Positions 59,014 to 63,292 of a DNA stretch of 64,000 nt are shown here, in pieces. The notes beneath the pieces are model-generated. The model did not search any database. It saw nothing but the letters and a program-made list of their open reading frames with translations, and had not been told where the DNA came from. The translations under genes and the position numbers were made by a program. This DNA is from Bradyrhizobium sp. sBnM-33 (lineage in GTDB: Bacteria > Pseudomonadota > Alphaproteobacteria > Rhizobiales > Xanthobacteraceae). Positions within the stretch are counted from its first letter, which is position 1; every line of letters begins with the position of its first letter. The stretch spans positions 5,146,001 to 5,210,000 of the forward strand of contig NZ_CP136624.1 in the NCBI RefSeq assembly GCF_032917945.1, written 5' to 3'.

Positions 59014-59088
59014 GTAGCCCGGATGAGCGAAGCGAGGTCCGGGTTTTGGTTGTGCGGATCCCGCATATCGCTTTACTCATGCGGGCTA
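59014..59088. repeat. Intergenic repeat (gtagcccggatggagcg family), copy 3
   Basis: Bounded by gtagcccggatgagcg and gcgggcta. Its right end provides the stop codon (cta, 59086-59088) of the PEP-CTERM gene read on the minus strand. Confidence 0.75.
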
Positions 59089-59889
59089 TTTGCTGAAATT
59101 CAGACGACCGCGCCTGGAAGCCATGAAGCCAACACCAGCAAAGCCCAGGATGATCATTGCCCAAGTAGATGGCTCGGGGACAGCGGCGATAGAGTTTCCT
59201 ACGCCAGGACTAAGTTGGATTTGGTAGCCGTCCGGCACCGTAAAGACAGGATCGATCATCGTGCGATTACTTGCGCTGCAAGCCTCCAATCCGCATCCAG
59301 CATAGACGGTACCCTCCAGCATCACATTGTAGATTGTGTTGGTCAAAAAGGCGTAGTTGCCATTAACTGCAAAATCCAGTCCGGTCCCGCCATTGCCTGC
59401 GGCAGTCGACCAAGTGTAATTGCCTACTGAGGCATAGGAGTTGCCAATCCTAAGCACCGCCACGTTTCCTTCGGTAGTCACGGCGCCCAAGGCATTTATA
59501 TGGGTGTGCACGACTCCCGGCTGCCCGGCTATGTAGATTTGGTACTGCATAGTGAAGTGTGCCGTCGCGCTAGCTCCTCCAACATATCCCGTCCCTGGAA
59601 TATATCCCGGCGTAGAGGCCGCAGCAGTCATTTCGAAGAAGGGTGCCGGAGTTAGGGCTGTGTGAAACCTGAAGGCAGAGGTACTCCCGCCCGAGTGTGT
59701 GATGTCCAGATTGTTTCCCGCGGTGAGGCTCCCACTGTAGTTTCGCCCGGTCAATGCCCCATCAATCCATTGACCGGAATAGCCGCCGCCGTAAGTCACC
59801 GGGCCTAAAACGACATCTGCGGATGCAGCTTTTGTCGAGAGCACCACGACAAGCACGATGTTAGCAGCAACGAATCGGCGAAAACTCAT
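59086..59889 (-). CDS. PEP-CTERM sorting-domain protein
   Basis: A 267-residue secreted protein. Signal peptide after MSFRRFVAANIVLVVVLSTK (cleaved near ASA), a beta-rich middle (YGGGYSGQWIDGALTGRNYS, GNNLDITHSGGSTSAFRF) and a C-terminal sorting tail: VPEPSTWAMIILGFAGVGFM and a basic end ASRRGRLNFSK. The tail is cut by an exosortase (EpsH/XrtA type), not encoded in the window. ATG 59889 is chosen for its GGAGG site; an ATG six codons upstream is weaker. A region homologous to the upstream of the desaturase gene starts 15 bp before it. Confidence 0.88.
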   Translation of the reverse strand: MSFRRFVAANIVLVVVLSTKAASADVVLGPVTYGGGYSGQWIDGALTGRNYSGSLTAGNNLDITHSGGSTSAFRFHTALTPAPFFEMTAAASTPGYIPGTGYVGGASATAHFTMQYQIYIAGQPGVVHTHINALGAVTTEGNVAVLRIGNSYASVGNYTWSTAAGNGGTGLDFAVNGNYAFLTNTIYNVMLEGTVYAGCGLEACSASNRTMIDPVFTVPDGYQIQLSPGVGNSIAAVPEPSTWAMIILGFAGVGFMASRRGRLNFSK

Positions 59890-59903
59890 ACTTAAATCCC
59901 CCT

Positions 59904-59993
59904 CCATTTCGACCCACGGCAGGACCTCGAAGGCATGCTGGTCCTCATAACTTTGATTGTCTCGGGACGCTTGTCGTGACCCAAATAGGCTAC
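59904..59993 (-). promoter_or_regulatory. Shared upstream element, copy 1
   Basis: About 90 bp upstream of the PEP-CTERM gene match 61966-62049 upstream of the desaturase gene. Conserved blocks are ccatttcga, ggtcctca, gattgtctcg and a 23-bp identical core (59971-59993, including cgtgacccaaataggctac). The spacing to each start is alike (about 10-15 bp). Read on the minus strand it is a plausible duplicated promoter with a common operator. Confidence 0.7.
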
Positions 59994-60020
59994 ACGAAGG
60001 TTAGCTGACCACCTGGCGCG

Positions 60021-60953: not shown

Positions 60954-61956
60954 GCTTGGCACCAATTGCGATGGTATCGGGTGTCTCTGATTGATCCCGC
61001 GGCAATCTTATGACGTTCCAGACCAGTCCAAGTTTTTCCAGCAACGTGATGATGTGACCGTTTATGTCGAGCTGCCCTTCTGTAAACCCATGAAAAGCTG
61101 AGCGCGGAAAGCGGTGATGGTTGTTGTGCCAACCGTCACCAAATGTGAGAATTGCTAGAATTCGATTGTTCTTGCTTCCGTTGCCTTGCGAATACGCCTC
61201 TTCGCCAAAGAGATGGCCGAAAGAATTGACGCCCCAGACAACGTTGTGAAGTACCGTGGTGCGGAGGCATCCGCCGATAAGCATCGCAGTCCATGCTGCA
61301 TCCGGACCAGCGAGTAAGTAACCGTACCCGTAAGGCATGGCCAAGGAAATTGCGGGCCAGATCCAGTGCGTTCGATGGAAAAAGGCAATCAGCCTGTTGT
61401 CGGTAACACTTGCTCCGTAAACACTGACATCTGTCGTGGTGCAATCAAACAACCAACCGACGTGGGCGTGCCAAATTCCCTGAAGTCCACTGAGAGAAGA
61501 GCCCCATTCGTCAACAAGCGGTGAGTGCACATCTCCGAATTGATCTGTGTGGGCGTGGTGGCGCCTGTGATCTACAACCCAGCGTGCAATAGACCCCTGA
61601 AAAGCCGTCGAGCCAAGCGCACCCAACAAGAACGCGATTGCTGGGGTGGTCTCAAAACTTTTGTGCGAGAAGTACCGATGCAGGCCGAGCGCGACGCCCA
61701 AACCGACAAGTACGTAAAAGAGCACGAACGCAGAAATATCAATCCATGTAACGCCGTGCTGCACTATGTGAAGCCCGGCCCAAAAGCTACCCAACAGAGG
61801 AATTCCGACGAGTAGTCCATTCTCGACACGTTTTCTAATTGCCGGCAAGCCGCCGAACTGGACGCCTTCAAAGATTACAGGCTGCAAGAAACTGTCCACT
61901 GAAACGGAGCGGGTCGCCACTACCTTGCGAACCACGGTTGACAATGCAGTGAGCAT
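60946..61956 (-). CDS. Membrane fatty-acyl desaturase
   Basis: A 336-residue diiron desaturase with three histidine boxes: HRYFSH (about 93-98), HRRHHAH (about 130-136) and HNNHHRFP (about 277-284), the delta-9 acyl-CoA/acyl-lipid type, with four predicted membrane helices. It would put a double bond into a fatty acyl chain using O2 and electrons from a ferredoxin or cytochrome b5-like donor, not present in the window. ATG 61954-61956 follows GAAATGG. It is the first gene of an operon with the methyltransferase. Confidence 0.9.
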   Translation of the reverse strand: MLTALSTVVRKVVATRSVSVDSFLQPVIFEGVQFGGLPAIRKRVENGLLVGIPLLGSFWAGLHIVQHGVTWIDISAFVLFYVLVGLGVALGLHRYFSHKSFETTPAIAFLLGALGSTAFQGSIARWVVDHRRHHAHTDQFGDVHSPLVDEWGSSLSGLQGIWHAHVGWLFDCTTTDVSVYGASVTDNRLIAFFHRTHWIWPAISLAMPYGYGYLLAGPDAAWTAMLIGGCLRTTVLHNVVWGVNSFGHLFGEEAYSQGNGSKNNRILAILTFGDGWHNNHHRFPRSAFHGFTEGQLDINGHIITLLEKLGLVWNVIRLPRDQSETPDTIAIGAKHG

Positions 61957-61965
61957 CTCGGGAAG

Positions 61966-62049
61966 CCATTTCGATCGACGGCGGGATCACGCCGGTCCTC
62001 AAAGCTTTACGATTGTCTCGAGTTGATTGTCGTGACCCAAATAGGCTAC
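61966..62049 (-). promoter_or_regulatory. Shared upstream element, copy 2
   Basis: This is the counterpart of 59904-59993, upstream of the desaturase-methyltransferase pair. The identical 23-bp core lies at 62027-62049. The divergent LuxR gene begins 101 bp to the right, so the same interval may hold its promoter too. Confidence 0.7.
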
Positions 62050-62149
62050 GAAAAGAAGATTGGATGACGGGTCTGTTGCCGAAATGTGACTAGTTAAGGT
62101 TGTATTGGGGCTGCAATGTTGCTTTGTAGGCGCGCCGCAGGCGGTCCGG

Positions 62150-63292
62150 ATGATTAACTATGGATCACAGGATCGGCTTCTAACAGCGGTCGACGCTATA
62201 TACGAAGCAGCTACGGACCCATCGAAATGGCCAGCCGCGTTGGGAGCAATTGCGGATTGCTTCGGGGATGTGGGCGCGGTGTTGGTTTGGCGTCGGGATG
62301 ATGGATCGTTTGGTACGATTGTATCCGATACGCTAATAGATGCACAAAGAGATTACGAAGAGAGTGGTTGGGCCAACCGCGATATTAGAGCTACTCGGGC
62401 GACAGAGCGTGGCTATTTCTTTAACGGAGTGCCGATCACTGACCGGCACCTCTGTTCACCCGACGAAATCAGAAATGACCCGTGCTACACGCAATTCTTA
62501 GCCAAGCAAGGGCTCGGCTGGGTTGCGGGAATCGCCGTGTCTCCGGAGCCGCACGTCGGAGTTCTTGTCAGCGTTCAGCGCGATTCTAGCCGCAAGTCGG
62601 AATTCTCGGATGATGAGCTCGGCTTGCTGGTCATTATTGGCCGGCATATTGAGAAATCACTGCGCCTGTCAATCAGACTGCTCGATGCCGAGCTAACTAG
62701 ACTTGGACTGGGTGAAGCATTGGCGAGAATCGGAATCGGGGTTTTTTCACTGGATTCACTCGGCCGCGTCGTTTTTTCAAATCCAGCAGGGCGACGGCTC
62801 ATCGGAGATGAACTTCATTTGGTGCAGGATCGATTGCGGATCGGTTCCGGCAGTACTCGTGAAGCGATTGATGAGGCTATCACGCATACGCTCCGCGGAT
62901 ATCGTCACGATTTGGTCGCTGAGCCAAAACCTTTGCTCGTTCACTCCCTCAACTCGAACCGGCGGCTGGTAATCTATTTGCTTCCAATCGGGACGCGGAC
63001 CAGTCTCGCCGAGGAGTTTCTAACGAACACACGAGCTATTGTGCTCGTCATCGAACAGAAGCTCGACGAACCTCCTGATCCAACACTAGTTCGCGACGTT
63101 TTAGGCCTCACCTTGGGAGAAGCCCGCATCGCCGCACTTGTGGGCTCAGGCCTGCCACCCAGAGAGGCGGCAGAGCGACTTGGGATAGCGGAAGATACAG
63201 CGCGGAATTTGCTCAAGCGCGTATTTTCAAAAGTGGGCGTCTCTCGGCAGAGCGAATTAGTAGGGTTACTAGCAAAGCTCGTGCTTCGCTAA
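62150..63292 (+). CDS. LuxR-family transcriptional regulator
   Basis: A 380-residue regulator. ATG 62150 (MINYGSQDRLLTAVDAIYEA) is preferred over a TTG at 62105. Residues about 10-180 form a sensor region resembling GAF/PAS-type regulators (FGDVGAVLVWRRDDGSFGTI, GWVAGIAVSPEPHVGVLVSV); a second PAS-like part follows (ARIGIGVFSLDSLGRVVFSN). The C-terminal LuxR helix-turn-helix is LTLGEARIAALVGSGLPPRE, AAERLGIAEDTARNLLKRVF, SKVGVSRQSELVGLL. The residues of the classical AHL-binding domain were not seen. Divergent from the desaturase operon, it is the natural candidate to regulate it. Confidence 0.85.
   Translation: MINYGSQDRLLTAVDAIYEAATDPSKWPAALGAIADCFGDVGAVLVWRRDDGSFGTIVSDTLIDAQRDYEESGWANRDIRATRATERGYFFNGVPITDRHLCSPDEIRNDPCYTQFLAKQGLGWVAGIAVSPEPHVGVLVSVQRDSSRKSEFSDDELGLLVIIGRHIEKSLRLSIRLLDAELTRLGLGEALARIGIGVFSLDSLGRVVFSNPAGRRLIGDELHLVQDRLRIGSGSTREAIDEAITHTLRGYRHDLVAEPKPLLVHSLNSNRRLVIYLLPIGTRTSLAEEFLTNTRAIVLVIEQKLDEPPDPTLVRDVLGLTLGEARIAALVGSGLPPREAAERLGIAEDTARNLLKRVFSKVGVSRQSELVGLLAKLVLR

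Follow-up and report, generated by a model that had tools for sequence, protein, structure and literature searches.

A regulator of the LuxR type and a methyltransferase resembling PhcB recur as neighbours in Bradyrhizobium genomes, and this recurrent neighbourhood is the main new result of our analysis of a 64,000-nucleotide window from Bradyrhizobium sp. sBnM-33 (bases 5146001-5210000 of a single-contig genome of 9,184,954 bp). The pair lies within a four-gene island at 59086-63292, in which the genes for a PEP-CTERM protein, the methyltransferase and a fatty-acid desaturase are all on the minus strand, with the LuxR-type gene divergent on the plus strand. In the best reading, the PhcB-type methyltransferase stands in for LuxI in a synthase-receptor pair, with the PEP-CTERM protein as its output. 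More specifically, the chances seem evenly balanced that the island is a cell-to-cell signalling cassette, whose desaturase and methyltransferase would yield an unsaturated fatty-acid methyl ester for the LuxR protein to sense. The broader proposal, that Bradyrhizobium holds an unrecognised quorum-sensing class in which PhcB-type methyltransferases feed LuxR receptors and a desaturase-coupled branch uses an unsaturated fatty-acid methyl ester, is put forward more tentatively and is rather doubtful at present. No description of a LuxR-PhcB-type pair was found in a partial literature search of the titles and abstract openings of open-licence papers.

A profile search of 265 genomes of the genus, scoring eight candidates per genome, revealed 13 PhcB-like methyltransferase genes in 12 genomes, all 13 matches being rows of the search's own profile. 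A member of the window's LuxR family adjoins 10 of the 13 genes or their operons, in divergent (G000, G066, G232, G027, G096 and G015), convergent (G026 and one gene of G245) and co-directional (the other gene of G245, and G115) layouts. Two of the ten paired regulators are damaged or doubtful, that of G232 being split between frames and that of G015 having one stop in the matched stretch. The family has 1 to 19 members per genome in the 12 genomes (median 4, E ≤ 1e-10), and since the single window LuxR sequence used as query gave three members in the window's genome (E ≤ 0.001), the scarcity of the family is independent of the profile built from methyltransferase-adjacent regulators. By chance, about 0.4% of the genes would be expected to have a family member within 3 kb, which gives a binomial probability of 1e-22, too strong a figure because several loci share descent. 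Another LuxR relative (P0271) and a methyltransferase (P0005) are apparently located on one contig, as both contigs are 26166 in size.

Two sets of loci depart from the pairing. The methyltransferase genes of G016, G108 and G109 have no neighbour of the LuxR family, and only 5 of the 28 places (27 genomes) holding close relatives of the window LuxR are paired, counting a methyltransferase remnant in G205 and G232 as seen in a longer stretch, while the other 23 have no methyltransferase within about 1.5 kb. At five loci (L159, L160, L162, L163 and L036), a window-type LuxR gene faces another member of its family head to head, with no methyltransferase in most cases.

More telling than the binomial figure is the phylogenetic tree, where the methyltransferases with a LuxR neighbour fall into three distinct clades (the program flagged long branches separating the deep ones), and this distribution bears on an alternative that we regard as unlikely, namely lipid remodelling without any signal. 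Here a structural lipid or acyl intermediate would be modified, and the regulator would switch on the enzymes and the surface protein in response to an environmental or metabolic cue. Such a role would suit a desaturase, which is a normal lipid-remodelling enzyme, and a methyltransferase whose substrate is only predicted; it would also suit the N-terminus of the regulator, which resembles GAF-type domains as well, and these bind many kinds of ligand. However, the same LuxR family also adjoins PhcB-like methyltransferases in two further clades, where the stretches examined gave no desaturase match, so the partner of the regulator is the methyltransferase and not lipid unsaturation.

The methyltransferase gene occupies 60021-60953 on the minus strand and encodes 310 aa, its start being most likely the ATG at 60953 because a 90% relative (P0001) begins there. 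The protein matched Methyltransf_25 at 1.5e-7, above the curated cut-off. Its likeness to PhcB, which had been proposed in the original prediction, held for the core of the enzyme, as 14 invariant columns in a 15-row alignment that includes four long forms disclosed motifs common with the methyltransferases heading phcBSRQ-type operons, and 17 of the 120 relatives listed bear the JGI (Joint Genome Institute) name 3-hydroxypalmitic acid methyl ester biosynthesis protein. Orthology did not hold. The identity with the four long forms is 21-25%; the long N-terminal domain is absent, with 310 aa versus open reading frames (ORFs) of 463-524 aa in eight phcBSRQ-type loci; and the island has no kinase and receiver operon (phcS, phcR, phcQ), its neighbours being the desaturase, PEP-CTERM and LuxR genes. 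That operon layout is present in G594 and, minus the kinase match, in G717. Judged by sequence, the enzyme is thus PhcB-like in its core motifs but not a PhcB orthologue. A PADLOC defence scan gave one weak match, to mad2 (5.8e-8), over methyltransferase residues 104-253.

The wider context was taken from the best 80 named-genome methyltransferase loci of 494 confirmed, one of which (L095) lacks a +1 neighbour. Kinase ATPase domains were observed in 14 of the 159 proteins at ±1 versus at most 2 of the 129 at ±3, an upper bound set by the absence of this domain from the 25 families listed at ±3, and receivers in 16 of 159 versus 6 of 129; the excess of kinase domains next to the methyltransferase counts in favour of the signalling reading. 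No LuxR gene was found next door to the methyltransferase relatives of Rhizobium plasmids and Aureimonas in the loci examined; on two Rhizobium plasmids the upstream neighbour encodes a GGDEF-domain protein, and on the Aureimonas plasmid there is no adjacent regulator. At L191 and L192 (on pRL12 and pR132501), a gene distantly related to that of the methyltransferase (28-30% identity) is divergent from a GGDEF-domain phosphodiesterase gene, and 116 of the 126 plasmid records matching the methyltransferase are from Rhizobium. A flavin-dependent oxidoreductase-cluster gene precedes the PhcB-like methyltransferase in Chitinophaga genomes and in those of the Dyadobacter type (L062, L066, L071, L087 and L098; L086, L093, L096 and L103). 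A weakly LuxR-like neighbour in Polaromonas (L073, 54 bits) has only a sub-threshold sigma-type helix-turn-helix (HTH) match and was left out of the count.

The desaturase gene (60946-61956, minus strand) encodes a stearoyl-CoA-type fatty-acid desaturase of 336 aa, with 66.7 bits to PF00487 (FA_desaturase) against a cut-off of 29.7 (3.7e-18) and matches to solved acyl-CoA desaturases at 3.9e-21 and 5.1e-21. Its stop overlaps the methyltransferase ATG by 8 bases (60946-60953). The two genes adjoin in G000, G232 and G066, overlapping in the window and in G066, and judged by equal contig size (120 matches listed for each protein) they are apparently together on seven further contigs. The methyltransferases of these seven group with that of the window in a tree group of 13 rows (support 84/95; 97/90 for 12 rows without P0097), which also holds P0003, P0005 and P0007 with no matching desaturase contig. 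Within the stretches examined, a desaturase was found at none of the 80 named-genome loci, and the idea that it accompanies the methyltransferase throughout the family was rejected and retained for the window's own clade.

These patterns also bear on a rather improbable alternative, in which the island is indeed a signal pair, but the methyltransferase yields something other than a fatty-acid methyl ester (another methylated carboxylate, or some methylated molecule derived from an acyl group) and the desaturase has a different purpose. The low identity to the long forms, the lack of a desaturase at the named-genome loci and the closest fold of the methyltransferase, 3ocj, a structure of no known function, are all consistent with such a product. 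On the other side stand the overlapping coupling in the window and G066 and the seven apparently shared contigs in the window's own clade.

The LuxR-type gene (62150-63292, plus strand) most likely starts at the ATG at 62150, as a 93% relative is likewise 380 aa. The product consists of an N-terminal autoinducer-receptor or GAF-like domain (approximately residues 1-180), a PAS-like middle and a C-terminal HTH. The GerE HTH scored about 17 bits (16.9-17.0), under the cut-off of 23.5, which two relatives adjoining methyltransferases passed (31.6 and 26.5 bits), and profile comparison of the C-terminus returned the HTHs of NarL and DevR (E 0.0014-0.0037). The Pfam autoinducer-binding domain was not reported among matches to E 10, where HMMER filters drop most weak matches, and the GAF match (0.014) was below its cut-off. 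Nevertheless, the N-terminal domain is confidently predicted to have a ligand-binding fold like that of receptors of acyl-homoserine lactones (AHLs): the best matches of the model were AHL-receptor ligand-binding domains, whose chains occupy VIA rows 1-23 of the fold comparison, with phytochrome GAF domains close behind. LuxI is not among the four island genes, to which this statement is confined, the rest of the genome not having been searched for it.

The PEP-CTERM gene (59086-59907, minus strand) encodes an exported protein of 273 aa with the PEPxxWA motif, matching PF07589 at 6.9e-7, above the curated cut-off, and NF035944 at its cut-off; the families originally assigned to this protein and the two enzymes were therefore borne out. 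One of the 264 other genomes of the genus has an orthologue (G232, 87%), and other PEP-CTERM matches in the genus are weak and mostly limited to the C-terminal motif. The genome holds one exosortase gene.

The duplicated upstream region that the original prediction had described was also recovered, and its core is specific to the two promoters concerned. A 39-nt stretch at 90% identity lies on the minus strand before the PEP-CTERM gene (59955-59993) and before the desaturase gene in the desaturase-LuxR intergenic region (62011-62049), its 23-nt core being 64-86 nt and 71-93 nt upstream of the respective ATGs, and a second part near the start codons has 26 nt at 81% (59904-59929 and, on the minus strand, 61966-61991). 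The 23-nt core with ≤3 mismatches occurs at exactly two sites in the genome, both in the island (reversed control 0). A relaxed 19-nt consensus matched exactly at two sites in G000 (both promoters), one in G066 (desaturase-LuxR intergenic) and one in G232 (the PEP-CTERM promoter, the sole element match in 20 kb), with one extra site per genome at two mismatches and none in any reversed control. As this consensus was derived from those very sites, the window's 15-nt core is the fairer test; it was found with two mismatches within a 195-nt stretch of G066, which was equalled by 1 of 3000 shuffles. G066 carries a diverged desaturase-methyltransferase pair with the element upstream, and since its methyltransferase is 56% identical and its LuxR 27%, the element seems to follow the desaturase-methyltransferase operon. 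The element was not found before any of 19 further window-type LuxR genes, where the best match had 4-6 mismatches of 15, and its use as a binding site for every window-type LuxR is unsupported. No sigma-70-type promoters were found, against 3.1 expected from shuffling.

The island looks acquired, as had been suggested from its AT-richer codons, because its GC content is low and close orthologues of its methyltransferase occur in only 3 of the 265 genomes, its own included. GC is 53.7% in the island versus 62.8% in bases 1-59000 of the window, whose lowest-GC stretch of 4.2 kb (53.3%, from about 58901) almost coincides with the island, and GC at third codon positions is 0.53-0.58 for the island genes versus 0.57-0.85 for other non-overlapping ORFs ≥200 aa. 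The four ORFs and their overlap were confirmed as first described, apart from the two starts corrected to 60953 and 62150. Synteny of all four genes across the genus, which the original prediction would have expected to be conserved, was seen in just one other genome, G232, where the LuxR relative is split in two overlapping frames (L033:7440-8601) and the other three genes are open; among the 265 genomes, the intact set with an unbroken LuxR gene is confined to the present one. The closest named relatives of the window proteins are from Bradyrhizobium. To the left of the island, a protein at 57411-58523 has a sub-threshold phosphonate-binding match (PF12974), and a sequence resembling its C-terminus lies next to the PEP-CTERM gene of G232, so the island occupies the same site in both genomes. 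Scattered short palindrome-like repeats of 26-34 nt, 69-92% alike, were also noticed there (56687-56712, 57163-57239 and 59018-59043).

Low GC and rarity are also what a chance assembly would leave, that is, an acquired stretch whose genes have a duplicated promoter in common but no function, and the duplication extends to the start codons as a plain duplication would. We consider this improbable, the least favoured of the explanations weighed, as G066 retains the core of the element although its methyltransferase is only 56% identical, and the LuxR-methyltransferase neighbourhood recurs in three clades.

For the signalling cassette, the genomic evidence strengthened the idea first proposed, through the LuxR family standing beside most of the methyltransferases and the AHL-receptor-like predicted fold. 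We infer its chemistry (substrate and product), the diffusion of the product, ligand and element binding by the LuxR protein, and regulation of the PEP-CTERM gene. The desaturase would put a double bond into an acyl chain, and the methyltransferase would esterify the acyl carboxyl to give an unsaturated fatty-acid methyl ester. The ester would diffuse and be bound by the divergent LuxR protein in its predicted receptor-like domain, and the ligand-bound regulator would, through the shared element, control both the operon of its cognate synthase and the PEP-CTERM gene. The methyltransferase substrate and the action of LuxR at the shared element are the weakest of these steps. If true, this would be a new variant of quorum sensing and a new way to supply a LuxR-type receptor with a signal. 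The pairing with PhcB-like methyltransferases makes lipid methyl esters a ligand class that can be tested for one LuxR-type family, and as the hosts are related to legume symbionts, it could matter for population control and surface proteins in those bacteria.

Among known systems, the PhcB-PhcS/R/Q quorum sensing of Ralstonia uses methyl 3-hydroxymyristate or methyl 3-hydroxypalmitate. The island resembles it in the methyltransferase core motifs and in a synthase gene beside a sensor gene, but its regulator is of the LuxR type where Ralstonia has a histidine kinase with receivers, its methyltransferase is without the long N-terminal domain, and a desaturase is coupled to it. With LuxI/LuxR systems and LuxR solos it shares the LuxR-type layout and the predicted N-terminal fold, whereas its regulator has no reported Pfam autoinducer domain, carries an extra PAS-like part and neighbours a methyltransferase instead of LuxI. 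PluR and PauR of Photorhabdus, the LuxR-type receptors of photopyrones and dialkylresorcinols, are likewise served by non-LuxI synthases, though these synthases and their chemistry differ. Diffusible signal factor (DSF) signalling uses cis-2-unsaturated fatty acids, and the putative signal of the island would also be an unsaturated fatty-acid compound. A passage of PMC13419125 names this DSF class. The four island genes include no RpfF-type crotonase or RpfC-type kinase; instead, a membrane desaturase would be the source of the unsaturation, and the acid would be converted to its ester.

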